Source of the DNA: Rhodohalobacter sp. 614A
GTDB taxonomy: Bacteria; Bacteroidota; Rhodothermia; Balneolales; Balneolaceae
Direction: 5' to 3'
Assembly: GCF_021462415.1 (NCBI RefSeq)
Contig: NZ_JAKEDS010000003.1
Coordinates: 524,743 to 588,742, forward strand
DNA length: 64,000 nucleotides
The notes under the pieces are model-generated. The model had not been told where the DNA came from. It ran no database searches and saw only the letters and a list, made by a program, of their open reading frames with translations. Shown here one piece after another: positions 38,168-56,114 of this stretch. The first letter of the stretch is position 1; every line of letters begins with the position of its first letter. The translations under genes and the position numbers were made by a program.

Positions 38168-39466
38168 TTAATCTGTTTTTCTTAACCGTTTAATCATTTT
38201 GATGAGCGGCCAGATGATCAAAATGGCGATGGCAATGGAAAGAACAAGCGTTAATCCTTCATTTACCAAATCCGGATAAAACAGTCGGGATATTGCTTTG
38301 AGGACATTCGTAACGCCGATCACCAATGTGATAAAAACAACGATTCCCATCGCCCAATTGTAGGGTTTTGAGTTGATCTGTTTTCCCAGCAATTTGGCAT
38401 TGTTCACCATCAAAAACAGAAAGATGGCAATCAATGGCAACACAATTCCATTTAAAGCCTGTGCTAAAATAATGGCTGGAATCGGTTGTACCTGTAGAAT
38501 TCCAAAAAGCGTACCGATACAAATGACGCCTATCCATATCAGGCGGTAGTACATACCTTTGGCTTCCCATTTTTTATTTCCCCCACCCCAAATACTTTTT
38601 GCGGTGATGGATGCAGCAAGCGGAGCGGTTAAAGAAGAACTGAATCCAGCCGCCATCAAACCAAAAGCAAAGAAAACTCCGGCCCAGCTTCCCAGTTCAT
38701 CTGACAGTGTTTGAGCGAGGCGTTCGAATGAGAATGCTCCGGTAATATTTGTACTTACAATCAGAACGGCAATAGATATTATTCCTCCCAAAACAATGGC
38801 CAGCGTTAAGCTCACACGCATCTCTTTCAGGGTTTGATTGTGTGATAATCCCGATCCCAAAAAAATATTATATGGCACAACGGTGGTTCCTATCAGGCCC
38901 AGTACAATCAGTTCCGATCCTGGAGGAAGCTCCGGAACAAAACTTCGTTGAAGAACTGTGCCCCATTCCGGGCCAATAATAAAAGCCGTGGATAAAAAAC
39001 AAAGGCCCATCAAGGCAACAATTCCACCCATTACCTGGGCGATAACTTCCGTAGAGCCGAACCATAACAGCAATGCGGCGCCGCCGCCCATTAAGAGTGT
39101 ACCCCAAATAGCGGCATTATCAAAAATGAGCAGAATGCCAGAAATTCCTCCCAGAATATTTCCGGTTTCGTAGGCTGCGCACCCAAAAATGATTGAAAAA
39201 GGCACCAGCAAAATCAGCACTTTCCCAACCGAAGAATCACTAAAAAAAGTTTTTAAAACCTGGCCTAAATTCTTTCCTGAAACGATCGTTAGTCTTGCAC
39301 TTGCTTCCTGTAAAACCACGCAGGCAAAGGTTGAAAATACAAGTGCCCAGATAAGACTGTATCCGAAACCGGCACCCGCAGATGCCGCCGTTGTGACCGT
39401 CCCAGGACCAATAAAAGCGGCTGACAACACCGACCAAAACAGGATATTCAATAACCGATGCTTCAT
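38168..39466 (-). CDS. Nramp-fold transporter without metal-binding residues
   Basis: 432-residue integral membrane protein with about 11 helices, assignable to the Nramp family by overall pattern. In metal-transporting Nramp proteins helix 1 carries DPGN and helix 6 carries a Met in a GATVMPHN-type segment. Here helix 1 reads IGPGTVTTA (Gly20, Thr23 in place of Asp and Asn) and helix 6 reads GTTVVPYN (Val197 in place of Met). The Mn/Fe site is therefore absent. Its ATG overlaps the TGA of the 5-oxoprolinase gene, so the two are translationally coupled. Bacillus subtilis places an Nramp-family gene (ycsG) beside its own 5-oxoprolinase genes. I infer import of 5-oxoproline or a related lactam rather than manganese. 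Confidence 0.8.
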   Translation of the reverse strand: MKHRLLNILFWSVLSAAFIGPGTVTTAASAGAGFGYSLIWALVFSTFACVVLQEASARLTIVSGKNLGQVLKTFFSDSSVGKVLILLVPFSIIFGCAAYETGNILGGISGILLIFDNAAIWGTLLMGGGAALLLWFGSTEVIAQVMGGIVALMGLCFLSTAFIIGPEWGTVLQRSFVPELPPGSELIVLGLIGTTVVPYNIFLGSGLSHNQTLKEMRVSLTLAIVLGGIISIAVLIVSTNITGAFSFERLAQTLSDELGSWAGVFFAFGLMAAGFSSSLTAPLAASITAKSIWGGGNKKWEAKGMYYRLIWIGVICIGTLFGILQVQPIPAIILAQALNGIVLPLIAIFLFLMVNNAKLLGKQINSKPYNWAMGIVVFITLVIGVTNVLKAISRLFYPDLVNEGLTLVLSIAIAILIIWPLIKMIKRLRKTD

Positions 39467-42400
39467 ACTGTAGCTTCTTTAGCCTTTGGATTTTTTTGAA
39501 TAGCGGGTTCCGTTTCCAGAGATCCGTAACCTCCGCCGCCCGGAGTGTGCAGGATAAAGCGGTCGCCTGCTGCAAGTTGTCTTCCATCCACAGAAGATAA
39601 TTCTTCTTTCTCGCCACTTTGTCTAACCACCCATTGATGGCCTGTTTTTCCCGGTTCACCGTCTTTTAATCCATACGGACCTTCTTTGCGGTGTTGTGTT
39701 AACACCGACAAACTTACCGGTTCCAAAAAGGTCATTTCTCGAACAATTCCATCTCCACCGGTATGCTGTCCTTTTCCACCGGAATCTTTTCTTACCTGAT
39801 ATAAATCCAGACGAACCGGGTAACGATATTCAAAAACTTCGGGATCAGTTCCGCGGGTATTCGTCATATGCTGGTGTACGGCATGGCAACCTTCGAAATC
39901 CGGCCCCGCGCCGGTTCCGCCGCCAACCGTTTCGTAGTATCCAAAATTGTCGTTTCCAAACAGAATATTGTTCATGGTCCCCTGGCTGCACGCCGCACGG
40001 TTGAACGGTTTCAGAAGTGTATCAACCAACCGCTGACTGATTTCAATATTTCCTCCTACAACCGCCGGACATTTGGCCGGATCTTCATCAAAAACAGGAT
40101 TTAATAAACAGGTCGGTAGATGGATGGTTACAGGATCGAGGAGTCCTTCGTTTAACGGAATCGGTTTGGAGATCAACATTCTCAACACATACATCACCAC
40201 ACTATTTACAATAGCTGGGGTGGCATTCAGGTTATTCGGATGGACATCACCGGTTCCTGTAAAATCAATCGAAACATGTTCATCTTTCACAGTCAGTGTT
40301 GCAACCAATGGGGTTCCATCATCTAAATATTCCGTGCTTTTATAGACGTTATTTTCAATTTCCCGCAGCATACTTTTCGACATGGAAGATGCGTGCTCTT
40401 TGAGTTCATTCATGTAATGACGAACTTCATCCGAGCCATACAAATCCACAAGGTTTTCCAAAGACTGAACGCCCCTTCGGTTTGCAGCTACAGCGGCACG
40501 CAGATCTGCAATATTCTCTTCAACATTTCTGGTGGGATATCTGCCGCCAAGCAACACGTTACGAATGTCTTCCCATTTCGGGTCACCGTTTTTCACCAAA
40601 TACATGGGGGAAATGGTTACGCCTTCCTGCGCCAGATTTGTTGCATCCGGAGGCATAGAGCCCGGTCTTGTCCCTCCTATTTCGGAATGATGAGCCCGAC
40701 TGGCAGCGTATCCGATCAATTGATCTTCATCTACAAAAACGGGTGTAATAACCGTTACATCCGGCAAATGAGCCCCTCCGTAAGCCGGATGATTGGTGAC
40801 TATTACATCGCCCGGTTCTATTTTCATATGTTCTTTGATGCTCCGTACGCACATTCCAATTGCACCGAGATGAACCGGAATGTGAGGAGCATTTACCACT
40901 AATTCGCCTTTTTCATTCAGCAGTGCACAGGAAAAATCAAGTCTCTCTTTTACATTTACGGAGAGGGCTGTTCGCTGAAGCATTTCTCCCATCTCCTCCG
41001 CAATGGACGTAAACCGATTGGTAAAAAGTTCAAGCTTAATCGCTTCCGGTTGAGAGAAAGAAATCAAACTTGATGACTCCTCACTTTTTTCGAGTTTCAG
41101 AGTTAAGTTCATATCCACTTTGGCTTCCCAACCCGGTTCAATAACAATCGTACTTAGCGGATCTAAAACCAATGCAGGTCCTGAAATCAGATGTCCTGGA
41201 CGAAGCTGGGCACGGTCGAATAACTCGGTTTCAATCTTTTCACCGTTAAACCAAATATCTTTCGACTGAACCGCAAGAAGTTTGGATGTTGAGGGCGGCT
41301 CATCCGGATTTTCAATGGTTACCTGTGTTGAGGCAACAACACGTAGTGATTCCACCTCGATAGATAATCCATCAATCCAATGGCCGTACCGTTCCTGGTA
41401 AAGTCCATAAAACAGATCTTCGACCTTTTCATCTTTATCATATTCAACGGAAAGAGTGGATTCCTGGCCTTCAACTCTCAAAAAAACAATTCGCCTTCTG
41501 ATAAAGATTTCATCATTCTTAATATTTTGCTCTTTCAATTCCTGAACGGCCTGCTCTTCCAAATCAGAGAACAGTTTTTCCAATTCTGATTCTGTTTCTT
41601 CCAGCGGCTGAAGCAATTGTTTTTCAGCGAAACGTTCCACCACAGCATGACCCAGGCCATGCGCACTCAAAACACCGGCTTCAATCGGGACCACAATATT
41701 TTTCATCTCAAGCCGGTCTGCAATCGCACAACAATGTTGACTTCCCGCTCCACCAAACGAAACCAATGCGTAGTCCTGTGGATTATACCCTTTTCTCAAC
41801 GATATTTTTTTGATGGCATCCGCCATGCGTTCATTGGCGATACTTAAAAATCCCTCTAATACAACTTTGGGATCAACTTCTTTAGCCTCTGCTTCACTGA
41901 CCTTCGCCACAATCTGGTCTAACTGATTTTTGGCATCCTGAATGGAAATTGGGATTCCGAAATTTTCGGGTGCTAAACGTCCCAAAAGTAAATTGACATC
42001 CGTAATGGTCAGCGGTCCACCGGCACCGTAACACGCCGGTCCGGGATAGGCCCCTGCACTTTCCGGGCCAACACTGAGCGTATATCCATCAAACGAACAA
42101 ACAGAACCGCCACCTGCAGCCACGGTTTCTATGGACAGTGCAGGAGCGACCAAATGGGCATCCCCTACTTTATGCTCAAATGCATATTCATAATCGCCGC
42201 CGTAACGGGCTACGTCCGTGCTGGTTCCTCCCATATCAAACGAAATAATATCGGAGAAACCGGCCTGTTTGCCCACCGTAGATGCGCCCACAACACCACC
42301 TGCCGGTCCACTTAATAAACTGTCTTTGGGATAGAATCTTTGATCACTCACCAATCCGCCGGCGCTGGTCATCACAAATAAATTTCCGTCTGTGAGGCAT

Positions 42401-43302
42401 GATTTTACCGACGAAATATATTCCCTGATGATCGGATCGAGATAGGCATTAACCAGCGTAGTTTCTGCACGTGGCAATATTTTGATGAAACGGCTCAGCT
42501 CACTCGATAGCGAGATGTATTCAAATCCTTTTTGGGATAACCAGTTTTTCAGTTCCTTCTCATGATCCGGATTTTTATAGCTGTTCATCAATGCTACGGA
42601 AATGGATTTCACTCCTTTTCGCAAAAGATCGTCCACAGCTTCCTCCATTGCGCCCAAATCTAATTGGGTTAATACCTCGCCATTAGCATCCATCCGCTCA
42701 GGCACTTCAATGGTATAAGCATATAAAGACTGTGGTTTTTCGATATTCAAAGAAAAAAGATCCGGCCGTTGTTGCGTACCAATCTCTAACAAATCTTTAA
42801 ATCCCTTTGTGATGAACAAAGCCGTAGGTGAACCATTCCGTTCTAACAAGGCGTTTGTCCCGCGGGTAGTTGCCAAGCGCATGTTCATCGGAGGCAGATT
42901 TTCATCCAATAAGGTGCCAGTTACCAAACGTGCCGCTAAAATGGGCGCTTCCTCTTTGGTAATCACCTCAAACCCCACACCTTCCCACGGAATATCATCT
43001 GGCAGGGGAGAATTTACTTTCAGCAGTGATTCCTCAGGATCAAAATGAATCACTGTCATGTCATCACAGGCTTTGTTGAGTAACCGAAAAGTAAACCCTT
43101 TCACAAAGTTTAAAGGAGCCGACCAATCCTGTGAAATCAGAAATGTATCCGGAGAAAGTACCTGCTCAATGGAGCCCCGCAATGAACTATTACTGAGGAC
43201 TTTTGTTCTGATTTTCTGTCCTTCCGGAGTGATGGCGATACAATCGGTAAATGTACCTCCCGTATCAACCCAAATATTCCATCGTTTATCGTCTGTACTC
43301 AT
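39463..43302 (-). CDS. ATP-dependent 5-oxoprolinase / hydantoinase A-B fusion
   Basis: 1279-residue single-chain enzyme with the architecture of eukaryotic OPLAH: HyuA-like half (about 1-720) and HyuB-like half (about 745-1270). ATPase motifs DTGGTFTD (13-20) and SFDMGGTSTD are intact; the HyuB half shows LQRTALSVNVKERLDFSCAL, VHLGAIG and the C-terminal HTPGGGGYG. The reaction expected is ATP-driven opening of L-5-oxoproline to glutamate; hydantoin hydrolysis is the alternative. Cytoplasmic. It overlaps the Nramp-like transporter gene and is preceded by 181 bases of leader after the DUF2891 gene. Confidence 0.9.
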   Translation of the reverse strand: MSTDDKRWNIWVDTGGTFTDCIAITPEGQKIRTKVLSNSSLRGSIEQVLSPDTFLISQDWSAPLNFVKGFTFRLLNKACDDMTVIHFDPEESLLKVNSPLPDDIPWEGVGFEVITKEEAPILAARLVTGTLLDENLPPMNMRLATTRGTNALLERNGSPTALFITKGFKDLLEIGTQQRPDLFSLNIEKPQSLYAYTIEVPERMDANGEVLTQLDLGAMEEAVDDLLRKGVKSISVALMNSYKNPDHEKELKNWLSQKGFEYISLSSELSRFIKILPRAETTLVNAYLDPIIREYISSVKSCLTDGNLFVMTSAGGLVSDQRFYPKDSLLSGPAGGVVGASTVGKQAGFSDIISFDMGGTSTDVARYGGDYEYAFEHKVGDAHLVAPALSIETVAAGGGSVCSFDGYTLSVGPESAGAYPGPACYGAGGPLTITDVNLLLGRLAPENFGIPISIQDAKNQLDQIVAKVSEAEAKEVDPKVVLEGFLSIANERMADAIKKISLRKGYNPQDYALVSFGGAGSQHCCAIADRLEMKNIVVPIEAGVLSAHGLGHAVVERFAEKQLLQPLEETESELEKLFSDLEEQAVQELKEQNIKNDEIFIRRRIVFLRVEGQESTLSVEYDKDEKVEDLFYGLYQERYGHWIDGLSIEVESLRVVASTQVTIENPDEPPSTSKLLAVQSKDIWFNGEKIETELFDRAQLRPGHLISGPALVLDPLSTIVIEPGWEAKVDMNLTLKLEKSEESSSLISFSQPEAIKLELFTNRFTSIAEEMGEMLQRTALSVNVKERLDFSCALLNEKGELVVNAPHIPVHLGAIGMCVRSIKEHMKIEPGDVIVTNHPAYGGAHLPDVTVITPVFVDEDQLIGYAASRAHHSEIGGTRPGSMPPDATNLAQEGVTISPMYLVKNGDPKWEDIRNVLLGGRYPTRNVEENIADLRAAVAANRRGVQSLENLVDLYGSDEVRHYMNELKEHASSMSKSMLREIENNVYKSTEYLDDGTPLVATLTVKDEHVSIDFTGTGDVHPNNLNATPAIVNSVVMYVLRMLISKPIPLNEGLLDPVTIHLPTCLLNPVFDEDPAKCPAVVGGNIEISQRLVDTLLKPFNRAACSQGTMNNILFGNDNFGYYETVGGGTGAGPDFEGCHAVHQHMTNTRGTDPEVFEYRYPVRLDLYQVRKDSGGKGQHTGGDGIVREMTFLEPVSLSVLTQHRKEGPYGLKDGEPGKTGHQWVVRQSGEKEELSSVDGRQLAAGDRFILHTPGGGGYGSLETEPAIQKNPKAKEATV

Positions 43303-43483: not shown

Positions 43484-44770
43484 CTACTGGTTTTCGGTGG
43501 TAGCGAGATAATAAATCGCATACGTACCCAACCAATGTGTTCCCAAATAATCTGTTTTATATAAAGAGTTGAATCCTTCCTCAGCATGGTAGTTTGCTAA
43601 TTTTATATACAGCTCTTTCCGGGGATCATTCTCCGGCAAAACACTGGCAATTTGATTGAACGCACCGGCCCGGTAAAATGCCAGGCCAACCAGATGCGAT
43701 TTCGCTCCCATCAGGTCATTTTCTTCTTCAGTATCTTCACCGTCCTCGTTCTCTCCATTTTCTTCGTCTGAAGGACTTTCCTTTTCAAACATAATTTCCG
43801 GAACGGTTCGCAGAGAACGAAACCCTTCAGAATATGGAGCAGGCATAAAAGAGTTAAACCAGTCATAAAATTCTTGTTGAGGCAAAACAGAACTCATCAA
43901 GACAGCTTCGGCAAGGCAGGGCGATAGAAAATCTGATCCAGAAGGTTCATACGATGCCGGGCATTGGACATCATCCATGAAAAACCGCCGTGAATGTTTA
44001 TCTATAGCTTCCAAAAGTGGTTCGCCATTGGCATTAACTGCATAATCATGCATCATCTTCAAAGAAAATGCTGTGTTGCTGTGCGTTCCAACCCGTATCG
44101 GATAGTCCAGTCTTTCCAGGTAGGAAACCATGTTTTCTGAAAAGTATTCCACAAGAGGTTTCATTGCTCCTGACCACTCATCGGCTTTTTCATGATCCCA
44201 ATCGAAAATTTCATCGTACAGAAACATGTACCAGGCCCAGCCATACGGACGTTCAAATCCGCCACGGGCGATCTCTTTGAAAAAGTGTAATTCACCTTCT
44301 AAACTGGATTCTGAGAGATGATTATCCAGTTTTTCTTCAATAAGACCGCCGACGGCCATTTCCGGAAATTGCTTGTAAGTGCGTACCATTGTCCAGGTAG
44401 AATTCACGGCCGAATGCCAGTCAAAACATCCATAAAACGATAGCGAATCTTCAAAAGCCGGCTTAAGCTGTTCGGTGCGTTCATACAGATATCCCTGGTA
44501 ATTCGATTTCGTCTGAGGACGGTCAATACAAGAAAGAGGAAGAGCGGCCAACGAAACGGCGGTTACCAAATCCAGTTCAGGAGTTTCCGAAACGGGTATT
44601 TGATCCATCACTTGTTGAATTTTCTCCCTATCACTTCCGGTAAATGTCAGTACACTATCGGGAGCAGTAACAGAATCCGTCTCTGTTCCCGGTTGATCTG
44701 AATTATTACAGGAATAAAAAACAAACAGAGCTGCTAGCAGGAGAATATTTTGTAAGTATTTCATCTTCAA
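43484..44770 (-). CDS. DUF2891 family lipoprotein
   Basis: 428-residue protein of the uncharacterised DUF2891 family, recognised from CFDWHSAVNSTW, GGFERPYGWAWYMF and YPIRVGTHSNTAFSL, which are its hallmark aromatic segments. Lipobox FYSC (Cys21) predicts a lipid-anchored envelope protein. A very acidic low-complexity insert (Glu/Asp/Asn, around 325-350) is unusual. The many Trp, His and Arg on a likely alpha/alpha barrel suggest a hydrolase or lyase, but function is unknown. It follows the M14 peptidase by 26 bases and probably shares its transcript. Confidence 0.85.
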   Translation of the reverse strand: MKMKYLQNILLLAALFVFYSCNNSDQPGTETDSVTAPDSVLTFTGSDREKIQQVMDQIPVSETPELDLVTAVSLAALPLSCIDRPQTKSNYQGYLYERTEQLKPAFEDSLSFYGCFDWHSAVNSTWTMVRTYKQFPEMAVGGLIEEKLDNHLSESSLEGELHFFKEIARGGFERPYGWAWYMFLYDEIFDWDHEKADEWSGAMKPLVEYFSENMVSYLERLDYPIRVGTHSNTAFSLKMMHDYAVNANGEPLLEAIDKHSRRFFMDDVQCPASYEPSGSDFLSPCLAEAVLMSSVLPQQEFYDWFNSFMPAPYSEGFRSLRTVPEIMFEKESPSDEENGENEDGEDTEEENDLMGAKSHLVGLAFYRAGAFNQIASVLPENDPRKELYIKLANYHAEEGFNSLYKTDYLGTHWLGTYAIYYLATTENQ

Positions 44771-44796: not shown

Positions 44797-47700
44797 TTAC
44801 TCTTCCACCTCGGAATGGTATTTCTCATATAAAGAATCCGGAAGTACAGGTTTTACTCTGTATTTACTTCTGAGGAATCGGTCGCCCACACTTTTGGATG
44901 TGGTTGTTGTATCAAACTTTCCATTGTACAAATATTGAAGAGCGCCGGTACTGTGGGCAACTCCGGCAGCGGCATTCATCTGCATCCATTCTCCAGCGGC
45001 CGGTTCATCCGGAGCTTCCGATACCAGTGAAAAATAGGTGATTCTCGGATCGCGGTACCCGTCTCCTGTATTTTCAATTCCTTTCAAAGGCGCATTCACC
45101 CAGATATCATTCATATAAAATTCGCCATAGGCATCTTCCTGCGAACGATATTTTTTATAACGGGTCTGCATTTCAAGATTCACTTTTCTCATTTCGGGAA
45201 CGGCATCCACGTGAGCCGAAATGGAATCCAACAAAGCAAACGAGAGATCTTTACTGGAAGAAAAATCTTCATGATCGTACCAGCTGAATCCTGTCAGAAA
45301 ATATCCTCGTGGGATCCAGTAGTTGTTGGACCTCGGACCTCGATCACGGCTGCTCATCCACGCGCTATATCCGGCAAAATATTGGACCCATTCGTGCGGC
45401 GGATATCCATGCATGTTGATATACACATCCGGCAGCCATTCTTCCTGTACTTCGCGACGAACTTTTGCTACCTCGTAACGTGGATCCAGATTGTTTTGAT
45501 CACGGGTAATATCCACAGCAAGCGGCCCAAGATATCCGGCATGATGCATGTGGTACGGGTTGATTTTATTTAGATCCACAGCAAGATTGGCGCCATCCGG
45601 ATTGGTGATGGGATGGAGCACCAAATTCACTTTGTTTAAATATTTACTGTATTCAGGATCGGTCGCTGCTTTTTCCGCAAGCTTCAGAATATGGCTTGTA
45701 CTTGAAAATTCGTTGGCATGCTGCCGACCGGAAATAAACAGCGTCGGTTTCATCGCATTCAATTTAGCCTGCGAAATATACCTGGATTCCGTCGGAGGCA
45801 GCAGATCCATCACGTATACTTTTTCGCCCAAAAGGGATGTTGCTGCATAATAGACCTGGATGTTATCAAACGTGTTTAATTTCGAGAGAATCTCATTCGT
45901 TTCTGCGGGAGGAATGGGCGTGTCCCACTGCACAAGATTCTGTCCTGAATATTCGAAGTTTTCATCGTATGGAGCACTTCGAACAATCGGCTGAGCTTCA
46001 CTCGTTTGAGTCAGCGTTTTCTCAGAAATCCAGCCGGTACTGTCTTCAAGAGCAAACCGGAATGTGATATTTTTAATGCCTTCAACGCTTAGTGAAGAAC
46101 TAAATAAATTATTCTCCCGGAGTTTTTCATGAGCATTCAATATCCCCGTCAGGCGCTCCGAAGAAATAAATACATTGTCTATATAAGATTCTGAACCTCT
46201 TGCTTTTAGCTCTTCATATGGATTTTCCTCCTTGTCTACATCCAGCTCAAAAATCAGGTTTGCAATCTCTTCATCAGCACCAATTTCCAAACCGGTAAGC
46301 GCGGGTTCTTCAACTTGAATATTCGGAAGTTCATAATATAATTCCTTCGTTTCATGATCTTTCTCTTTGTAACGAAGAACTACTTCGGGACGGCCTTTCT
46401 TTTTACCTGTAAAATATATTTTTGCATGCCCAGGCTTTCCGTCTTCGGACGGCATGATATACGGTAAAATTCTTCCGGGATAACTCAGATCACCTACACC
46501 GTAACGGTTTCCAATCAAATCAAAAAACAGGATCGTTTCGAAGTAAATATCTTCATGAAGTGCCTCAAGAGAAGAAATCTGCTCTTCAAGAATTCCAAGT
46601 CTGTAGTCCGGTTCACTGAGTGTGATTTCAAATTTCAATTCATCGAAATAAGGAGCGAGATCGGGATCAGGTTTTCCATCCTGAATATCCATCACATAAT
46701 CCAGCACTTTTTGATAAGTGTCGGTTTGCATATGGTCCCAGAATCGTTCCAAATCGGTTTTGATTCGGTCATCAGCAATCTTTTCACCGTCAATTTCTGC
46801 CGTCAACCAGCCTGTAGTTACGCGAAGAGAATCGTACTCCGGAAACAGATCGAAATAGGGACGAATAACATATTTGGGGTCGAATACGTCAGAAAAAACA
46901 GTCTCCCCTTTTTTGTCGAAGGCTTCAAATGTATAGGTGTGATCGGGTGAATAGACCGGTGTGAATGAGACATCAACACTGGAAATATCAAGCTCATTTT
47001 CCAGGAAAGTGTCTATCGGGTAAATTTCCTGTAACCATCGCGTTTTGGAAGCAGATGTCTGCCATTTGATCTCTTCGGAATCCCGCAAATGTTTATACTG
47101 AATATTGATGGAATCCACTTTTTCGTCCTTGAGCTGAGGAATCACGACATTTTCAATCCAACTGAATCCCTGTTTGTAGGCATTCAAAACCTGCACATCT
47201 ATATCCTCTTCGGAAACACTCTTTTCATTGAGTTTGTCATAAATCTGTTCTTTGATCTGCTCCCGTATTTCAGGTGATTCACTAACCCTAAGAACAATCG
47301 ATCCTTTTGAATTTTCTGTGATGTTCGGCAGCACGTCTGCGTTAAACATCTCCCAAAAATCATTCACTTCCCATGGAATTGTAATCTCTTCCGAGAAGAT
47401 CGGTTCATCAACTCCAAACCCTGTTTTATAGGTTTCCACATCAACCTGGTTTACAGTAACCTGATTCTGAACACGCTGAGAAATAAAGGAATCTAAACCC
47501 TCCGGAATTTCTTTGGCTGCCAGTTCTATATCGAGATTTTCAAGTTCTTTTCCTTCAAGACGCGAAAGCCATGTATCCAGTTTTTCAATACCGTTAGCTA
47601 CTTGTCCGGCGCCTGAAATTCCCTGGAAAAATCGTCTCGCTTCGGTTTGAACTTCTTCCAGTGTCACATTTCCTTTTCCAAAATCCCACACATAAGGCAG

Positions 47701-48918
47701 ATGATGCGTCATATAGGTTAGAGCGGCACTTAATTGTATCTCATCGCTTCCTGTAATAATGAGTCCGTTGGTTTCTTCTCCGAACATTTCTTCACGGATT
47801 TCAATCCGCCCATTTTCGCTGGATGTCAGTGAATCGTCATCGGCCAGTTTTCCCTTAATTCGGTCTGTCACACCCACCAATACCGGAAATCCCTGAGAGC
47901 CAAATGTATCCATTTCATTGGCCGGAAATACGAATGGAAGTTTTAATCCGGCTGTTTCAAATCCTGCACGGGCAGCAAAGTTTATGAACTCCACCGGACT
48001 CTCCGTTCCCGCGTAGGCAATGTAAGAGCGGCTGTCATCCGGAACTTTGTCTTTATTGGTATCTGTATAAATTCCGCTGATGGTATAGAATTCAGAAATA
48101 TCAAAAAATGCAGAAGCGGAAGATGAATGATCACCACCATTTCCTTCGCTCTGGGGTTGGGTGCTATCCGATTGGAAGGTGAGAATATTCGCATCCTGAA
48201 AGTTCAGTTCGAGCTGATAAATACCGCTTCCCAATAATTTCTGTTTCCACTCTGTCCTTTCATCCGATGATAATTGATACTCCTCCTCAAAAATATCCCC
48301 GCTGCCGGTAATGGTGGCAAACATTTTGGTAATTCCTTTTTTTCCACTGCTCACAATCATTTTATCAAACAGGATATCTTCAAACTCTATCTCCTTGTCT
48401 CCGAGCAGGGTGAGGATTTTTTTCTTAAATCCTTCCAAATCATAATTCGAGTTTCCATCAACCGCAGGATACATTCCACTCAGGTAGTTCGATGCTGCCA
48501 ACAATCCCGTTGCGTCGTAACCTTTAACAGACAGGTCAGAATCTTTCAGTTGAATAAATCCCTGCCCCGGTGCAAGTGAAGTGCTGTTTGCATCCGGATC
48601 GATCCAAATAGCAATTTCCCCTTCTTTTGCAGAATATCCGTTTTGGAAACGTACCAAATCCAAATCCATGGCAGTCGTTTCAAAACCGATGCGGGCGGCT
48701 ATATTTGATGCCGCAATAATCTGGGCTTCCGTGGGTTTATCGGGCAAAATGAGTTTACCATTAACCTTATCAATCAATGAATCGGATGTGGTATCAAACA
48801 ACATATATCCGGGAGAAAAAATACCGGATAAATCAGACGTGTTTTGAGTTGCAAAAGCAGTCCCAAAATGTGTTAAAAATGTTATGACAGATATTAAAAC
48901 CAGAGAAAGTTTATTCAT
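44797..48918 (-). CDS. very large M14 zinc carboxypeptidase, exported
   Basis: 1373 residues from the ATG at 48918, which gives a clean signal peptide (about 1-24, ending AFA); a longer frame starts at 48972 inside a terminator hairpin. The zinc carboxypeptidase domain is at the C-terminal end: GRQHANEF (His about 1066, Glu about 1069), NPDGANLA and the third ligand in INMHGY, with a Glu in SLVSEAPDEPA as the candidate catalytic base. The roughly 1000 residues before it form repeated beta-rich and helical segments that I cannot assign. Usual M14 enzymes are 300-500 residues. Placed after an inducible SusC-SusD pair, it likely trims peptides captured at the surface. Confidence 0.87.
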   Translation of the reverse strand: MNKLSLVLISVITFLTHFGTAFATQNTSDLSGIFSPGYMLFDTTSDSLIDKVNGKLILPDKPTEAQIIAASNIAARIGFETTAMDLDLVRFQNGYSAKEGEIAIWIDPDANSTSLAPGQGFIQLKDSDLSVKGYDATGLLAASNYLSGMYPAVDGNSNYDLEGFKKKILTLLGDKEIEFEDILFDKMIVSSGKKGITKMFATITGSGDIFEEEYQLSSDERTEWKQKLLGSGIYQLELNFQDANILTFQSDSTQPQSEGNGGDHSSSASAFFDISEFYTISGIYTDTNKDKVPDDSRSYIAYAGTESPVEFINFAARAGFETAGLKLPFVFPANEMDTFGSQGFPVLVGVTDRIKGKLADDDSLTSSENGRIEIREEMFGEETNGLIITGSDEIQLSAALTYMTHHLPYVWDFGKGNVTLEEVQTEARRFFQGISGAGQVANGIEKLDTWLSRLEGKELENLDIELAAKEIPEGLDSFISQRVQNQVTVNQVDVETYKTGFGVDEPIFSEEITIPWEVNDFWEMFNADVLPNITENSKGSIVLRVSESPEIREQIKEQIYDKLNEKSVSEEDIDVQVLNAYKQGFSWIENVVIPQLKDEKVDSINIQYKHLRDSEEIKWQTSASKTRWLQEIYPIDTFLENELDISSVDVSFTPVYSPDHTYTFEAFDKKGETVFSDVFDPKYVIRPYFDLFPEYDSLRVTTGWLTAEIDGEKIADDRIKTDLERFWDHMQTDTYQKVLDYVMDIQDGKPDPDLAPYFDELKFEITLSEPDYRLGILEEQISSLEALHEDIYFETILFFDLIGNRYGVGDLSYPGRILPYIMPSEDGKPGHAKIYFTGKKKGRPEVVLRYKEKDHETKELYYELPNIQVEEPALTGLEIGADEEIANLIFELDVDKEENPYEELKARGSESYIDNVFISSERLTGILNAHEKLRENNLFSSSLSVEGIKNITFRFALEDSTGWISEKTLTQTSEAQPIVRSAPYDENFEYSGQNLVQWDTPIPPAETNEILSKLNTFDNIQVYYAATSLLGEKVYVMDLLPPTESRYISQAKLNAMKPTLFISGRQHANEFSSTSHILKLAEKAATDPEYSKYLNKVNLVLHPITNPDGANLAVDLNKINPYHMHHAGYLGPLAVDITRDQNNLDPRYEVAKVRREVQEEWLPDVYINMHGYPPHEWVQYFAGYSAWMSSRDRGPRSNNYWIPRGYFLTGFSWYDHEDFSSSKDLSFALLDSISAHVDAVPEMRKVNLEMQTRYKKYRSQEDAYGEFYMNDIWVNAPLKGIENTGDGYRDPRITYFSLVSEAPDEPAAGEWMQMNAAAGVAHSTGALQYLYNGKFDTTTTSKSVGDRFLRSKYRVKPVLPDSLYEKYHSEVEE

Positions 48919-48939: not shown

Positions 48940-48978
48940 AAAAATTGGTGTGTGGATCAAGTGATGATCCACACACCA
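48940..48978 (-). terminator. strong hairpin between susD and the M14 peptidase gene
   Basis: A perfect 14-base stem, TGGTGTGTGGATCA with TGATCCACACACCA and a 5-base loop, followed on the minus strand by ATTTTTC. It stands 73 bases past the susD stop and only about 21 bases before the M14 start codon, leaving no room for a separate promoter downstream; it may be a partial terminator or attenuator. Confidence 0.85.
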
Positions 48979-49051: not shown

Positions 49052-50596
49052 TTATTGATCCCACCAAACGTGCGTTGTTAAATCATCCGCACCATTCAGA
49101 TTGGAAACGGCTTGCGAAAGATTATCTCCGTTTAACGATTGTTCACTTAACGGATAAATCCACCGTTTGGGAACTTCATCAAGAAGAGCATCGCGTCCCG
49201 GTTCCAATACGGGATAATTCAATCGTTTCCACTCGTGCCAGCCTTGCACGCCCTGGTTGTAAAACTTAATCCATTTCTGAAGGCCAATCAGTTCTCTCCA
49301 TTGTGATGGATTCCAGGCCACACCCGGCTGCTGAAGATATTCGGCGATTTCCTGGTCTGTAATGCCGGAAGGAAATTCACTTTCTTTCAAACCAAGTGTG
49401 TTATAGGTATCATCTCCGGGAAAACTGCTTAAAACGGCATCCAATTTCTCCTGAGAATACATATGCATATTGGCTGTAATAGCTTCTTCGTATAAATCAC
49501 CTGCTGATTTTCCGGGGACATCCAGCCAGCCTCTTGCGGAGGCTTCACTAAATATGAAGAGAACTTCGGAATAGGTCATAATCACACCGGGTGTTGTGGG
49601 AGCCACGAAATATGCCCCGATGGGTGATACGTTGCTGTTGGTGTATCCTGCACCTTGCTCTAATCCAACCGGTAAGCCTATGATTTCGCTTGTCTGGCCT
49701 GTGGGCGCTGCGTATATCCGTAACCTGGGATCGTTCAAAGCCGATAAATTATCCACAACTGTGGCACTGACTTTATCATCTTCCCGAAGGCGGTACTGTT
49801 CATTATCCGGATGGTTGTTTGGATATTGCAGATAGGGTTTTAAAGCGTTGTCAGAATTACTTTCAAAGTATCCGCCCGCCGTATAAACTTCCTGAATACC
49901 GGCTTGTGCCACGCCTGGTTTCACTTCAGATAATCTCATATAAACCCGAAGTTTTAGCGAGGTAGCAAACTTTTTCCATTTGGTCATATCACCGTTATAA
50001 ATCAAATCTTCGCTGCCAAACGGACTGGAAGACTCATCGATTATATTGATGGCATGATCTAATTGTACGATCAAATCTTCATAAATCGACTCCTGTGAAT
50101 CATACTTTGGGTTGATCACTTTCTGTTCCAGAGGTGCATTTCCCAGGTTCGCTTCTGTGTAGGGAATATCACCCCAAAGGTCCGTCATATTTTGAGCAAT
50201 CCATGTTTTTAATATCACTGCGATTGCCTCCTGATTGACATTATTGGTCTCCTCAGCGGCAATTTCTATCTGATTTAAATTTTCCAGGATATTGATATAG
50301 AACGTAGACCAATGTCCGTTAGAACTGGAAGGGCTGTAATCATAAATCCCAGAACTTGCGTACAGAAGATTCGAATAATACTGTACGTACAAATTGCTGA
50401 TATCCAGTCCGCCAACGCTGAGGTCAACGGCGGCCTCTTCGGCGTAAGGAAGCACATATCTTGCATCTGCCGTTGGATTCGCATTGGGATTGGAATTGAC
50501 CTCCTCAAACCCGTTGTCGCAACTTATCATCCCAAAGAACGAGATTACTATAACTATTGCTGTTGGTGTGTTTATTTTTTTGAACATAGCAAACAT
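49052..50596 (-). CDS. SusD/RagB family outer membrane lipoprotein (second pair)
   Basis: 514 residues from the ATG at 50596; upstream frame to 50698 runs into susC and adds an implausible N-terminus. A lipobox GMISC (Cys about 26) is preceded by a hydrophobic helix. The sequence resembles the SusD-like 2 subgroup (SusD and RagB-like, starting NPNANPTADARYVLP). It follows its SusC partner by 19 bases. Ligand unknown; the neighbouring peptidase and oxoprolinase suggest peptides. Confidence 0.9.
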   Translation of the reverse strand: MFAMFKKINTPTAIVIVISFFGMISCDNGFEEVNSNPNANPTADARYVLPYAEEAAVDLSVGGLDISNLYVQYYSNLLYASSGIYDYSPSSSNGHWSTFYINILENLNQIEIAAEETNNVNQEAIAVILKTWIAQNMTDLWGDIPYTEANLGNAPLEQKVINPKYDSQESIYEDLIVQLDHAINIIDESSSPFGSEDLIYNGDMTKWKKFATSLKLRVYMRLSEVKPGVAQAGIQEVYTAGGYFESNSDNALKPYLQYPNNHPDNEQYRLREDDKVSATVVDNLSALNDPRLRIYAAPTGQTSEIIGLPVGLEQGAGYTNSNVSPIGAYFVAPTTPGVIMTYSEVLFIFSEASARGWLDVPGKSAGDLYEEAITANMHMYSQEKLDAVLSSFPGDDTYNTLGLKESEFPSGITDQEIAEYLQQPGVAWNPSQWRELIGLQKWIKFYNQGVQGWHEWKRLNYPVLEPGRDALLDEVPKRWIYPLSEQSLNGDNLSQAVSNLNGADDLTTHVWWDQ

Positions 50597-50615
50597 GTTA
50601 ATTTTTATAATTTCC

Positions 50616-53600
50616 TTAGAATGAGACATTGACATTAAAACCATAAGTACGAACCGGCGGAATCTGGTTGGATTCAATACCTTGCATATTGCCAGCACTT
50701 AAAGCCGTTTCCGGATCAATATGTGGCACTTTTTTATCGATGATCCAGAGGTTACGCCCAATAAGAGCGAAATCTACACTTTTGATAAAGAACTGCTGCA
50801 GAATATCAGTAGGCAGTGAATAAGTCAGTCTGACTTCCCTCAGCTTTATAAAACTGGCATCAAAAATGGTGGATTCTGTCACATTTGAGAAATGACGGTT
50901 GTACGGGTAAACGGTACTCATATCAATAGGAATATCATTCGGCGTGCCGTCTTGTTTAACAGCTCCCGAAGCGTGCCGGCCGCCATCGAATACAAAGGTG
51001 TTGACACGTCCGTCCAGCGTTTCGATATAGGTGCCGGCGTATCGGCCCCACCGGTATCCATCCGAATGAATCACACCACCTTGTTTTGTATCAATAAGAA
51101 AGCTGAACGCCCAATTTTTGTAATTAAACTGGTTGTTGATACTTCCGGACCAATCAGGAGCATAGGTTCCAAAAGACCGGATTTCATTATCGGCAATGGG
51201 AATTCCACGATCATCAACCACAATATTTCCGCTCTCATCCCGCAGATATCCGGTTCCGTACAAGGTACCAAAAGCTTCTCCCGGTCTTGCTTCTACCGAG
51301 GCTCCACGGCCGCCAATCACATAACTTTCAAGGCCTTCGGCCAGGCTTATCACTTCATTTCGGTTGCGGGTATAGTTAATCAGCATATCCCACGTAAAGT
51401 CCGAGGTCTGTACGATTGTACTTGATAGCGTAAGCTCTACTCCGTGGTTTTCAATTTCACCGACGTTAATAATCTGTGTGTTATATCCAGAAGCTTTGGA
51501 GATCTGTACCGGGAGAATCTGGTCTTTTGTATTCGACTGGTAATAGGTGGCATCCAGGCCAAGACGATTATCCAGAAATCTCATTTCAAGACCGACTTCC
51601 CAAGAAGCTGTTTGTTCTGGTTTTAATCCTTTGTTGGCAATCTCATTGTTAATTGCATAAGTCGCGATATTGCCAATGGGATCTTGTGAAGCATATACCG
51701 TTTCAAGCTGATAGGGACTGGTATCACTCCCTACACGGGTCCAGCCGCCACGGGCTTTTCCATAGGTGAACCACGAAGGCGCAGCAAAAAGATCAGTGAA
51801 GACCAAACTCAAACTTGCTGACGGATAAAAATAAGAGTTGTTCTCTTTTGGTAATGTGGATGACCAGTCATTCCGCCCTGTAATATCCAGATATACCAAA
51901 TCTTTATAGCCGATGGTTGCTGAACCATAAATACTGTTCACCTCTTTCTCAGATTGGAAATCAACGAGAGTTGGGCGTACAGCAGCATTTTCGAGTGTAA
52001 AAACACCAGGCAAACTTAACTGACTTGCATGGCCGCTATTATAGTTATAGGTATTCTGCAGATTTTCGGCACCAAGCATCCCTGAAAGAGAAATCAAAGA
52101 ACTTAAATCTGTATTGGCTCTCACCATAAACCGGGAAGACCACTCTTTTATGTATCGGGTTGATTCCAAATATTCACCGTCTGGCGTACGATGACTGCCT
52201 TGCGCATACCGGGCTTCGCGGCGATCGACATACCAATCTGTTCCGGTAAACCCTTCCATTTGCAGCCAATCGTTAACATCATAATTCAGTGTAACCCCAC
52301 CAATAATTCTATCTCTGTTTTGGGAGTTGGTGTTTTCGTATTGAATCCAATAGGGATTTTCGTGAACCGAACTCCAATTCCTCATATTTCCACTTTCATC
52401 TTTGTAATCACTAAGACGATCCATATCAATTTGCCGTGCCGTCCACTGGCCAATGGTAAACATGATGTTGTTCCAGTTATACCCTTGTTCAGCCCGGTTT
52501 AATGCTTCCAGGTCAATATAATTTGCACGAGCTTCGGCCCTCAATCGATTGGTGATGTTCATTCCCCCGTTGAATGAAATATTTGCCCGGTGCATTTTGG
52601 CATTGGGTACAATTCCGGTTTGGTCCAGGTTTGTGAAAGAAAGCCTGAAATTTGCATCCTCTTTACTTCCGGAAAGCGAAATGGAATTATTAAAAACTGA
52701 ACCGGTATTGAAAAAGCTTCTTGTATTTCCGGAATGAGATTCCCATGGCGCGGGCTCGCCATTTGACCACCATTGTACAATTTGCAAACCTTCATCCAAA
52801 GGCGGGCCCCAGCTTTCACCTACGTCATCAAATACTCCTCCCCCTCTTCCATCTACATAGGAAAATTGCGGGACTCCGTTTTCATCAATTTTACCCTGAC
52901 CAAATTTATTTTGGTACTCCGGGAATTCCAGGATCGTTTGAAATTGAGTACTGCTGCTAATATCCACACCAATACCATTATTTTGGCTGCCGTCTTTTGT
53001 AGTGATGACAACAGCACCATTGGCCGCACGGGACCCGTACAAGGCAGCAGCATTCGGACCTTTCAGTACCGTAATACTTTCAATATCCTCGGGATTGATA
53101 TCCATCGCTGCGTTTCCATAGTCAACTTCACTTGTGGTCCAGCCATAAGCGCCGGCTCCATCAAAATTGGAGTTATCTATATACACGCCGTCGATAATAA
53201 AAAGAGGTTGATTATCTCCCGAAAGGGAACTTACACCACGAAGCACAATTCTCGAAGATCCTCCAACATTTCCTGTTGCGCTGACAATATCAACCCCGGC
53301 TACGCGACCTTGCAAAGAATTTATAAGGTTTGTCTCTTTTGCCTTGGTTAGTTCTTCAAAATCGACGGACTGCGATGCGTAACCCAAAGATCGCTGCTCC
53401 CGCTGAACACCAAACGCCGTTACGACAACATCATCCAGTCCATACACGCTTGGCTGAAGGGAAATATTCAGTTCAACTTCTTCCTCCTCAATCACAACTT
53501 CTGTTGAATATTCCTGATACCCTACAAAAGATGCCTGTACAGTATAGGTTCCAAAAGGCACCTCTGTAATTTCAAACCTTCCATCCAAATCGCTGGGCGC

Positions 53601-54167
53601 CCCTATTTGAAGTTCATCAATGTATACATTCACTCCCGGCAGCGTTTCTCCGGTTGCGGCATCATTGACAATACCGGTAATCGTCCCTTCTTCAAACTGG
53701 ACCGAAGCCGTTGCTTCTTCTATATCCGGATCGACTATAATGGCCAAATGACCATTTTCTGATATTGCATATCGCAGGCTGGTGCCGTTCAAAACCTCCC
53801 ATAATGCATTGTTAATCGTAATTTTATGATTTGTTAACGAAACCCTTTTAGAAAGAGGAACAATTTGAGGGCTGTAGGAAAGTTTTAAACCTGCTTTGCC
53901 AGCAATCTCAAGTAAAGCATGTTCAAGAGTTCCGTTTTCAATATCTAACGATATTACTTTTTCAAGTACAGCAGAATTTTTACCAGATAATTCCAATCCT
54001 GTTGTAACATTGTATTTTTCAGCTACTACAAGTTCTCCTTGGGCTGTTGTCGGCTCAGAGTTATTATTCTGGGCCATTATCGGAGTCGCAAAAAAACAAA
54101 CTGAGAGCTGTACATAAAGCAGTACCTTAAGTTTGTTTACTATTTGTCCTGTATCTATTCTGAGCAT
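50616..54167 (-). CDS. SusC family TonB-dependent receptor with STN signalling domain
   Basis: 1183-residue outer-membrane transporter. Signal peptide (to about 32), then a secretin/TonB short N-terminal domain (about 70-145; ISLDIENGTLEHALLEIAG), a carboxypeptidase-D-like domain (about 160-240; GETLPGVNVYID), the plug with VVVTAFGVQREQRSLGYA and the SusC hallmark NAAALYGSRAANGAVVITT, and the barrel ending in YGFNVNVSF. The STN domain is the part that contacts a FecR anti-sigma factor when ligand binds. fecR and its sigma gene stand directly upstream, so this receptor should both import and report its substrate. Confidence 0.94.
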   Translation of the reverse strand: MLRIDTGQIVNKLKVLLYVQLSVCFFATPIMAQNNNSEPTTAQGELVVAEKYNVTTGLELSGKNSAVLEKVISLDIENGTLEHALLEIAGKAGLKLSYSPQIVPLSKRVSLTNHKITINNALWEVLNGTSLRYAISENGHLAIIVDPDIEEATASVQFEEGTITGIVNDAATGETLPGVNVYIDELQIGAPSDLDGRFEITEVPFGTYTVQASFVGYQEYSTEVVIEEEEVELNISLQPSVYGLDDVVVTAFGVQREQRSLGYASQSVDFEELTKAKETNLINSLQGRVAGVDIVSATGNVGGSSRIVLRGVSSLSGDNQPLFIIDGVYIDNSNFDGAGAYGWTTSEVDYGNAAMDINPEDIESITVLKGPNAAALYGSRAANGAVVITTKDGSQNNGIGVDISSSTQFQTILEFPEYQNKFGQGKIDENGVPQFSYVDGRGGGVFDDVGESWGPPLDEGLQIVQWWSNGEPAPWESHSGNTRSFFNTGSVFNNSISLSGSKEDANFRLSFTNLDQTGIVPNAKMHRANISFNGGMNITNRLRAEARANYIDLEALNRAEQGYNWNNIMFTIGQWTARQIDMDRLSDYKDESGNMRNWSSVHENPYWIQYENTNSQNRDRIIGGVTLNYDVNDWLQMEGFTGTDWYVDRREARYAQGSHRTPDGEYLESTRYIKEWSSRFMVRANTDLSSLISLSGMLGAENLQNTYNYNSGHASQLSLPGVFTLENAAVRPTLVDFQSEKEVNSIYGSATIGYKDLVYLDITGRNDWSSTLPKENNSYFYPSASLSLVFTDLFAAPSWFTYGKARGGWTRVGSDTSPYQLETVYASQDPIGNIATYAINNEIANKGLKPEQTASWEVGLEMRFLDNRLGLDATYYQSNTKDQILPVQISKASGYNTQIINVGEIENHGVELTLSSTIVQTSDFTWDMLINYTRNRNEVISLAEGLESYVIGGRGASVEARPGEAFGTLYGTGYLRDESGNIVVDDRGIPIADNEIRSFGTYAPDWSGSINNQFNYKNWAFSFLIDTKQGGVIHSDGYRWGRYAGTYIETLDGRVNTFVFDGGRHASGAVKQDGTPNDIPIDMSTVYPYNRHFSNVTESTIFDASFIKLREVRLTYSLPTDILQQFFIKSVDFALIGRNLWIIDKKVPHIDPETALSAGNMQGIESNQIPPVRTYGFNVNVSF

Positions 54168-54236
54168 ATGTATGTATACCTTAGTTGTGAATTGTGCGTC
54201 GGTTTTAATGACACGATAAACTGATTGTTTAAGGGG

Positions 54237-55301
54237 CTATTTAGCTTCGTAGTTTATAAAAGTTATTTTGTCACCATCTCTTATATAGCGAAGGTGCAGG
54301 GTTGCAGCTACCACATTGAGAACTTCACCCATGGGTTCATCACTAAACTCGGCCGTTAGCTTTGGAAAGCCGGATGTGGAATCCGGTACTTTAATATCGA
54401 TGTTATACCAGCGTTCCAGCTTGCTTACCACTTCATTGAATGGAGTACTTTCAAAAATCAGCAGGCCGTCTTTCCAGCCTAAATACTGATTCAAATCATT
54501 CTTATAGAACACACTTGCGTTTCCGTCCTCGTAGATTTCGGCTACTTCATTTTGTGTGAGTTCTTCGAATTTATGTCCTGTACTGTCGTTTCTTCCAAAA
54601 GCAACCTTCCCTTCCTCTACCACCGCAGTTACTTTTTGTGTGGGATGAGTGAGAACGGCAAACTTGGTTCCCAGAACCTGTGTAAATGTATTTTTTGAGT
54701 AGACGATAAATGGGCGGTCTGCATCCGGATATACCTCGAAATATGCATCTCCCGCCAAGTATAGCTCCCTGTTTTTTTCTCCATAGTCTGCTGGAATACG
54801 AATTTTGCTGTCTGCATTTAAAACAACTCTCGAACCGTCTTTTAACCGGAAGGTGGTGCGCTGCCCTTTTTTAGTTATGATTTCCTGCATGGCTATTTCC
54901 GCATCGGTATTTTTCTGCTCTGCTGAGGAAGAAAACCGGGCCGCCACATAAAGTGTAGCCATGGCCAAAATCAAAATGGATGCGGCTACATACAACCACG
55001 GCAAAATATTAGATCGGCTTTTATGCGAAGAGCTATATAAATGCTGGAGTTGTTCATCAATTCTTTTTTCTGGTGAATCAATGCCGCCCAATCTCGCCTC
55101 TACTCTATCAAGAGCTTTTTGAGCATTTGGCTTGAATTCCTTTTTAGGTTCAACATCCCACACTCTTTTTATATGCGCCAGGTAACGCCGGTTGTCTCTG
55201 TCTTCTTTCAGCCAGTTTTCGACACGTTTCTGTTCCGCCCGGGAACAGTGTCCTGACAAATATTTAACTAAAAGTGCAACATCCATGATTTGTGCTTTCA
55301 A
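54237..55301 (-). CDS. FecR family anti-sigma factor
   Basis: 354-residue single-pass inner-membrane regulator. N-terminal cytosolic anti-sigma region (about 1-95; LSGHCSRAEQKRVENWL), one transmembrane helix (about 103-123; WLYVAASILILAMATLYVAA), and a periplasmic FecR domain with TTFRLKDGSRVVLNADS, followed by a DUF4974-like C-terminal domain. It relays SusC occupancy to the ECF sigma factor. An ATG at 55286 (MDVALL) is an alternative start. Its transcript is separated from the sigma gene by a terminator and three TCAGGAA repeats. Confidence 0.93.
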   Translation of the reverse strand: MKAQIMDVALLVKYLSGHCSRAEQKRVENWLKEDRDNRRYLAHIKRVWDVEPKKEFKPNAQKALDRVEARLGGIDSPEKRIDEQLQHLYSSSHKSRSNILPWLYVAASILILAMATLYVAARFSSSAEQKNTDAEIAMQEIITKKGQRTTFRLKDGSRVVLNADSKIRIPADYGEKNRELYLAGDAYFEVYPDADRPFIVYSKNTFTQVLGTKFAVLTHPTQKVTAVVEEGKVAFGRNDSTGHKFEELTQNEVAEIYEDGNASVFYKNDLNQYLGWKDGLLIFESTPFNEVVSKLERWYNIDIKVPDSTSGFPKLTAEFSDEPMGEVLNVVAATLHLRYIRDGDKITFINYEAK

Positions 55302-55357
55302 TTACATTACTACACCTAACACGAATGAAAAGGAAGGCACCCTAAAAAAAATCTGTA

Positions 55358-55420
55358 TTTCAGGAAAAAAAATTTAAAAACCGTAAACTGTTTCAGGAAA
55401 ACCCTTGAAAAATCAGGAAT
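55358..55420. promoter_or_regulatory. three TCAGGAA repeats upstream of fecR
   Basis: TTTCAGGAAAA occurs at 55358-55368 and again, identically, at 55391-55401, with a shorter copy (AATCAGGAAT) at 55411-55420. Starts of the first two are 33 bases apart, about three helical turns. They lie between the sigma terminator and the fecR start, the expected place for control of fecR-susCD by the sigma factor or another regulator. Confidence 0.45.
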
Positions 55421-55490
55421 GCTTTCATAAAAAACTTCTGAGGGATTATTCTAAAAGAAAGGCTGGCAACAAATATTCCCTGGCTCCAAT

Positions 55491-55534
55491 CAAAAAGAAA
55501 CACAAACCATTTCTAACACTCAGGCGGTGTTTCT
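55491..55534 (-). terminator. intrinsic terminator of the sigma factor gene
   Basis: On the minus strand AGAAACAC (55534-55527) pairs with GTGTTTCT (55503-55496), with an inner CAC/GTG pairing, followed by TTTTTG. It starts immediately after the sigma stop codon, so the sigma gene is transcribed alone. Confidence 0.7.
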
Positions 55535-55535
55535 C

Positions 55536-56114
55536 TTATTTATAGAGCGAATTCTTCTCGTTTTTAAGAGCTACTCTAATGATTTCGAACGTTTTGCTGA
55601 TGTGATATTCAACCGTTTTTACAGAGATGTCTAAGATATCGGCTATTTCTTCGTAAGAAAGTCCATCCGTTTTGCACAATTTGAAAATCTGTCTCGTTTT
55701 TTCAGGAAGTACTTCAATCAGATTTTGAATGCGACTCTCAAACTTATCATGATCTAAATTTTCAGTATTCTGGTCCGTATTGCTCCTGTTAAGAGTAATT
55801 CTAAGCATCGATAACTTTTTATATACCATATCCTGGTGTTCTATAAAATCCAGAGCTTCATTTTTTACAGCCTGGTAAAGATATGGCTTCAGGTTCCTTA
55901 TATCTTTCAACTCCTCTCTTCGCTCCCACATCTTCACAAAAACTTCCTGTACCAGGTCTTCGGCAATAATCCGGGATTTTATATAGCGGTAGGCAAACAA
56001 ACACAGTCTCTCATAATACTGAATAAAGAGAGTTCTGAATGCGTCGGAATTCCCCTCTTGAATTTCTTTTAAACAGTTTTCCTCGTTAAAATGAGAATGG
56101 TGGATATGATTCAT
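55536..56114 (-). CDS. RNA polymerase sigma-70 factor, ECF (Bacteroidota expansion type)
   Basis: 192-residue ECF sigma factor with region 2 (AEDLVQEVFVKMWERREEL, LKPYLYQAVKN) and region 4 (LPEKTRQIFKLCKTDGLSYE, then IADILDISVKTVEYHISK). It matches the sigma factors that pair with FecR and STN-type SusC. It should direct transcription of the downstream fecR-susC-susD genes when the receptor is engaged. Confidence 0.94.
   Translation of the reverse strand: MNHIHHSHFNEENCLKEIQEGNSDAFRTLFIQYYERLCLFAYRYIKSRIIAEDLVQEVFVKMWERREELKDIRNLKPYLYQAVKNEALDFIEHQDMVYKKLSMLRITLNRSNTDQNTENLDHDKFESRIQNLIEVLPEKTRQIFKLCKTDGLSYEEIADILDISVKTVEYHISKTFEIIRVALKNEKNSLYK

Follow-up and report, generated by a model that had tools for sequence, protein, structure and literature searches.

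A probable 5-oxoproline acquisition and catabolism locus in Rhodohalobacter sp. 614A

Which nutrient would a bacterium pursue with a surface importer, a giant exported peptidase, a fused oxoprolinase-like enzyme and a carrier, all encoded head to tail? The question is raised by Rhodohalobacter sp. 614A, in which eight consecutive open reading frames (ORFs) run along the minus strand from 56114 to 38168 of the window, the 64,000-nucleotide stretch of contig NZ_JAKEDS010000003.1 that we analyzed. An earlier, sequence-only reading had proposed that these genes form one inducible pathway for pyroglutamate (5-oxoproline), from capture at the surface to glutamate. We conclude that the locus is probably a 5-oxoproline acquisition and catabolism cluster; the earlier interpretation is right in its core, and the reasons for it are stronger than those first given. 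Genomic context supports well the assignment of the cytoplasmic core, an Nramp-family transporter and an OplAH-type oxoprolinase, to 5-oxoproline, as it does the placement of a DUF2891 protein in the same pathway. One integrated, complete module is likely, judging from two genomes and partial recurrence in another phylum; that the SusC-SusD pair (SusCD), the M14 peptidase and the sigma-FecR regulators belong to it is less certain. Most likely, the inner half is a version of a pathway already described, to which the outer-membrane importer, the giant peptidase and DUF2891 are new additions.

Protein families were assigned by Pfam and NCBIfam profile matches, which found all eight genes of the sequence-only reading in their places:

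55536..56114, minus strand: extracytoplasmic function (ECF) sigma factor, Bacteroidetes FecI-like (TIGR02985)
54237..55301, minus strand: FecR-type anti-sigma factor (FecR and FecR_C above cut-off)
50616..54167, minus strand: SusC-type TonB-dependent outer-membrane transporter with an N-terminal STN-like domain (TIGR04056)
49052..50596, minus strand: SusD-like surface lipoprotein, SusD-like_2 (PF12771, PF12741; the ORF opens at 50698)
48946..48978, minus strand: perfect 14-bp stem-loop between the SusD and M14 genes (from the sequence)
44797..48918, minus strand: exported protein of ~1373 amino acids with a C-terminal M14 metallocarboxypeptidase domain (Peptidase_M14)
43484..44764, minus strand: DUF2891 lipoprotein with an (alpha/alpha)6-barrel fold, homologue of C. 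jejuni CJ0554 (PF11199 and predicted structure)
39463..43302, minus strand: putative OplAH-type fused ATP-dependent 5-oxoprolinase, 1279 amino acids (Hydantoinase_A and Hydantoinase_B)
38168..39466, minus strand: Nramp-family (APC fold) transporter, presumed PxpT type, predicted 5-oxoproline importer (PF01566)

The true starts of the SusD, M14 and DUF2891 genes are probably ~50596, ~48918 and 44764, respectively, where lipoprotein or signal peptides begin.

The transporter and the putative fused oxoprolinase

The transporter matched the Nramp family of Pfam over its full length (227 bits against a cut-off of 29.8; profile positions 1-356 of 357). In an alignment with Nramp proteins of solved structure, it shows GPGT in place of DPGN in the first transmembrane helix (TM1) and VVPYN in place of MPH or VMPH in TM6, and hence lacks the DPGN and MPH ligands by which a canonical Nramp/MntH metal transporter is recognized. 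The same replacement was seen in all OplAH- or PxpA-adjacent relatives with readable motifs. In Corynebacterium glutamicum, the Nramp-family protein PxpT is required for growth on 5-oxoproline, such that a pxpT deletion abolishes growth and pxpT alone complements it, and Bacillus subtilis requires YcsG, a 50% identical homologue of PxpT, for growth on the same compound (PMC13274462). The window transporter is apparently a PxpT/YcsG-type Nramp protein. The sequence-only reading had called it a lactam transporter; 5-oxoproline is its probable substrate, and the label is now corrected to a named family with replaced metal motifs. An Nramp protein might instead import manganese or another metal for the oxoprolinase or the M14 peptidase. 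Family membership favors this possibility, as does a B. subtilis study that held YcsG to be a manganese importer and found that its overexpression raises cellular manganese (PMC10448178), which weighs against a role in 5-oxoproline uptake. Nonetheless, both metal-ligand motifs are replaced wherever they could be read, and the C. glutamicum deletion and complementation point to 5-oxoproline, making metal import very unlikely here. The loci described below add genomic evidence to the dispute over whether YcsG/PxpT-like proteins carry 5-oxoproline or manganese.

The gene that overlaps the transporter gene by 4 bases (39463-39466), an overlap that the sequence-only reading had reported, encodes a fused A/B protein of the OPLAH type, with the phosphate motifs DTGGTFTD and DMGGTSTD and the adenosine motif GAYPGP, as such motifs are defined in PMC8453981. 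The protein shares the Hydantoinase_A/B architecture and the DxGGTxTD, DxGGT and GxxPGP motifs with eukaryotic-type OPLAH and with the caprolactamase CapAB (PMC8453981), and is a single fused chain like OPLAH; unlike these, it is bacterial and operon-coupled to a PxpT-type transporter, whereas CapAB is split and acts on caprolactam. Curated NCBIfam models for caprolactamase and acetophenone carboxylase subunits matched it far below their cut-offs (e.g. 307 against 1000 bits), and the substrate is therefore not readable from homology alone.

We next consider the distribution of the enzyme, counting OplAH by the Hydantoinase_B family and PxpA by LamB_YcsF in 92 genomes of the same family (Balneolaceae). 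OplAH was present in 38 genomes and PxpA in 32, with both in a single genome where 13.2 would be expected (Fisher p=8e-9, a value inflated by shared ancestry, which confounds the exclusion and so tells against our reading of it). At the level of genera, 9 had OplAH only, 8 PxpA only, 2 both and 2 neither (p=0.009); in genus g5, the sole genome with OplAH is the one without PxpA, and a LamB_YcsF search found no PxpA in the window's genome. An Nramp gene adjoins OplAH in 16 of the 31 OplAH genomes examined, with several loci cut by contig ends, and the same Nramp subfamily adjoins PxpA in 9 of 10 sampled PxpA genomes. In a tree with a very long outgroup branch, the OplAH-linked transporters, Acidobacteriota members included, form one clade (100/100) nested in the PxpABC-linked ones. 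Since OplAH and PxpA exclude each other and the same Nramp subfamily lies beside either, the plain reading is that OplAH took the place of PxpABC beside a constant 5-oxoproline transporter. From the PxpA exclusion and the shared transporter and DUF2891 context, we infer that the substrate of OplAH is 5-oxo-L-proline, and predict that the fused bacterial OplAH proteins encoded next to these Nramp transporters are genuine 5-oxoprolinases and have displaced PxpABC. A hydantoinase or another lactamase (of the caprolactamase type), in a locus for the degradation of a different lactam, is a very unlikely identity for the fused enzyme. Such a role would fit the breadth of the superfamily, the identity of the NCBIfam models that match and the closest solved structure, which is named N-methylhydantoinase; however, none of those scores comes near its curated cut-off, OplAH exchanges with PxpABC beside the same transporter, and it follows DUF2891 as PxpT-PxpABC do.

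The pairing of transporter and oxoprolinase is already known in principle from PxpT-PxpABC (PMC13274462), a precedent of which the sequence-only reading was unaware; the surface additions are new. The pxpTABC genes of C. glutamicum and the ycsFGI-kipIAR genes (pxpA-ycsG-pxpBC) of B. subtilis (PMC13274462; PMC10448178) likewise place an Nramp-family transporter beside an ATP-dependent 5-oxoprolinase. By contrast with both, the window has a fused OplAH and not PxpABC, has in addition DUF2891, M14, SusCD and ECF sigma/FecR genes, and has no GntR/KipR regulator.

DUF2891 as a partner of 5-oxoproline genes

The DUF2891 protein matched PF11199 with 319 bits, and its predicted structure (predicted local distance difference test, pLDDT, of 85) matched CJ0554 of Campylobacter jejuni (PDB 8ieu and 8iev) at Z 41, with (alpha/alpha)6 barrels of the GH88 and AGE types next in rank (Z 15-18). 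CJ0554 is encoded in the cj0552-cj0554 operon (DUF969-DUF979-DUF2891), deletion of which abolishes growth on 5-oxoproline (PMC12795558). The two systems thus have a DUF2891 protein of the same fold in common; they differ in transporter type, and the DUF2891 of proteobacterial plasmid relatives lacks a signal peptide, whereas that of the window is a lipoprotein.

We examined the surroundings of DUF2891 in 80 named loci. PxpT, PxpABC or OplAH was found within 5 kb in 42 of these, usually immediately downstream, and in 37 the next gene 3' of DUF2891 was Nramp, PxpA or OplAH, with overlaps mostly of 1-8 bp. In Bacteroidota, DUF2891 lies directly 5' of Nramp-PxpA-PxpB-PxpC in 5 of 20 sampled loci, and a sixth has Nramp only. 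The DUF2891-OplAH-Nramp order of the window also occurs in two metagenome-assembled genomes of Thermoanaerobaculales (L174, L182), and DUF969-DUF979-DUF2891 operons were found on plasmids of Klebsiella, Kosakonia and Niveispirillum. DUF979 had no match above cut-off in 394 genomes of the phylum (one was sub-threshold), indicating that a DUF979-type transporter is not the partner of DUF2891 in Bacteroidota. Hence, DUF2891 repeatedly shares operons with PxpT, PxpABC, OplAH and DUF969/979 across unrelated phyla, and its role in the pathway, which the sequence-only reading had prefaced with "perhaps", is strongly linked. Three points weigh on the other side: the C. jejuni mutant lacked all three genes and so does not single out DUF2891, the 80 loci are the top-scoring hits of the query and not a random sample, and 38 of them lack any 5-oxoproline gene at a distance of up to 5 kb.

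A signal or lipoprotein peptide is present on most DUF2891 proteins of the Bacteroidota and Acidobacteriota loci, and absent from those on the DUF969-DUF979 plasmids. Most likely, DUF2891 would make or free 5-oxoproline on the outer side of the inner membrane, immediately ahead of import. We tentatively propose, as a possibility that falls short of a favored conclusion, that DUF2891 proteins are enzymes of 5-oxoproline metabolism not recognized as such before, making or freeing 5-oxoproline from glutamine, gamma-glutamyl compounds or pyroglutamyl peptides, extracytoplasmic in Bacteroidota and Acidobacteriota and cytoplasmic in Proteobacteria, and that here it links a dedicated SusCD/M14 pyroglutamyl importer to a bacterial OPLAH-type oxoprolinase, in what would be the first complete outer-membrane-to-glutamate pyroglutamate system. 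A testable function for a family that has solved structures and as yet no role is the most valuable lead from the cluster.

Other functions were considered for DUF2891. It is unlikely to be the oxoprolinase itself because it co-occurs with PxpABC or OplAH, and unlikely to be a substrate-binding protein given the forms without a signal peptide. A cell-wall or sugar enzyme, as the GH88/AGE-like fold might suggest, was dropped, the fold alone being uninformative.

Several further features of DUF2891 and its loci were observed. DUF2891-Nramp has a gamma-glutamyltranspeptidase gene as its neighbor in Psychroflexus (L173, L179, L180), and such a gene is divergent to DUF2891-OplAH-Nramp in L174, a hint as to the substrate of DUF2891. 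The window's protein has an acidic insertion, ESPSDEENGENEDGEDTEEEND, at residues ~325-350, and has N in place of the nearly invariant H121. The DUF969-DUF979-DUF2891 operons of Klebsiella and Kosakonia (L117, L119) are carried on large conjugative plasmids, as mobile 5-oxoproline uptake genes.

The surface genes and their conservation

How might the surface genes serve the same pathway? SusC-SusD would carry pyroglutamyl peptides or related material across the outer membrane, and the exported M14 carboxypeptidase would trim the peptides; it could in principle also cleave the blocked dipeptide pyroglutamyl-X, which would spare a pyroglutamyl peptidase. DUF2891 would then yield 5-oxoproline in the periplasm, the Nramp-type carrier would import it, and OplAH would open it to glutamate, spending ATP. 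A relay of the SusC STN domain, FecR and the ECF sigma factor would turn on the front end upon substrate binding. No C15 pyroglutamyl peptidase was found in the window's genome, leaving room for M14 or DUF2891 to free pyroglutamate. Extracytoplasmic pyroglutamate is abundant in Bacteroidetes (the Q-rule; PMC5837995); the cluster suggests that it is a nutrient, and that some bacteria have a dedicated surface importer for it. A literature search for SusC, SusD or TonB together with pyroglutamate returned no paper joining them among its best 8 matches.

The locus resembles SusCD/RagAB-type nutrient loci with FecI/FecR in having SusC with an STN-like domain, SusD, FecR and an ECF sigma factor in order. 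In contrast to those loci, it is tied to a peptidase and 5-oxoproline catabolism, and Pfam and NCBIfam identified no carbohydrate-active enzyme among the eight proteins, such as would mark a polysaccharide utilisation locus. The sequence-only reading had treated sigma, FecR and STN-SusC as one regulatory unit. The sigma factor and FecR scored above cut-off; the STN domain is at its expected N-terminal place, but scored below the Pfam cut-off (20.2 against 28.4 bits, E 5e-4).

One other genome of the class, G267, keeps the order FecR-SusC-SusD-M14-DUF2891-OplAH-Nramp, with a small outer-membrane protein gene inserted before OplAH. Identity to the window is 28% for FecR, 58-60% for SusC and 52% for SusD, and ranges from 39 to 63% from SusC through Nramp. 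The flanks of the G267 cluster do not match those of the window, indicating a different chromosomal location. Contamination of G267 is estimated at 9%, and the contig may therefore belong to a different organism; even so, it counts as a second instance.

The M14 protein is rare. An alignment search found it in 3 of 245 genomes of the class, namely the window's genome, G267 and G264, and a single-protein search of 247 genomes of the phylum, a sample that did not include G267, found it in the window's genome only. End-to-end homologues are those of G267 (39-41% identity), G264 (50%) and the Acidobacteriaceae locus L127 (31%), and the zinc ligands H1067, E1070 and H1170, together with the likely catalytic E1301, are invariant in three homologues. 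The N-terminal half had nothing convincing in Pfam at E<=5, and its structure prediction from two sequences reached a pLDDT of 36. Full-length or partial M14 homologues lie beside DUF2891 in the Acidobacteriota loci L126 and L127. In L127 (2426-16874), HyuB-HyuA-GntR genes are divergent from genes for a TonB-dependent-receptor-like protein, DUF2891, the giant M14 protein and a major facilitator superfamily transporter, an arrangement suggestive of the module in an independent form.

It is unlikely, though by no means negligible, that two modules merely adjoin in the window: SusCD/M14 peptide scavenging with its own sigma/FecR, and an unrelated housekeeping DUF2891-OplAH-Nramp salvage operon. 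The sequence-only reading had held that its single pathway would fail if related genomes kept the surface part without the oxoprolinase and transporter, and the comparison of gene neighbourhoods gave a divided answer. Several observations speak for separate modules and against a single one. G264 has the M14 gene without SusCD, DUF2891 or OplAH in the 30 kb examined, and OplAH-Nramp elsewhere in its genome. The nearest SusCD relatives in other genomes lie without the other cluster genes. Nearly all carriers of OplAH-Nramp lack SusCD, M14 and DUF2891, indicating that the front end is not required. The sigma gene does not adjoin FecR in G267, which makes the regulatory front end the least conserved part, and the 181-bp gap between DUF2891 and OplAH, together with the SusD/M14 hairpin, makes separate transcripts possible. 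On the other hand, all seven genes from FecR to Nramp are kept in order at a different location in G267, DUF2891 sits on the M14 side in the window (26-bp gap) yet belongs to 5-oxoproline operons in other genomes, and M14-DUF2891 pairs recur in another phylum. The OplAH/Nramp/DUF2891 part of the single pathway is supported by the PxpA exclusion, the shared Nramp subfamily and the operon partners, and its surface part by G267 synteny and the Acidobacteriota M14-DUF2891 pairs. SusC, SusD and M14, the surface half, are an optional addition to the core.

Recycling of peptidoglycan or D-amino-acid peptides, with M14 acting on gamma-D-glutamyl bonds and DUF2891 as an epimerase-like enzyme for D-pyroglutamate, is a most improbable alternative to 5-oxoproline acquisition. 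Points in its favor are that cell-wall carboxypeptidases belong among the M14 enzymes, that both AGE epimerases and GH88 hydrolases are similar in fold to DUF2891, and that in G289 an M20 peptidase gene and an alanine racemase gene come after a SusCD relative. Nevertheless, the cluster has no peptidoglycan-specific gene, and fold similarity at Z 15-18 says little on function.

The hairpin between SusD and M14 has a counterpart in G267 (L034, 8321-8450) that is equally strong and in the corresponding position, with an unrelated sequence. Because only the window copy has a T-run, we read the element as one of processing or stability that may set SusCD apart from the enzymes, and not simply as a terminator. 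A promoter scan of the region gave matches at chance level only.

Neighbouring genes in the window

The edges of the cluster are clear: an opposite-strand sulfotransferase gene ends 27 bp away at one edge, and an SPFH/NfeD operon borders the other. This operon (56343-58739, minus strand), upstream of the sigma gene, encodes two SPFH/band-7 proteins and an NfeD protein, and was not found in the G267 contig. On the sulfotransferase side (30112-38140, plus strand), the nuo (complex I) genes end at NuoH, with the small sulfotransferase gene where the next nuo subunits would be expected. A second SusC-SusD pair at 23011-28989 (minus strand) is followed by a gene for an exported-type Ca2+-dependent phosphoinositide phospholipase C (PF16670), forming a possible phosphoinositide or phospholipid scavenging locus.

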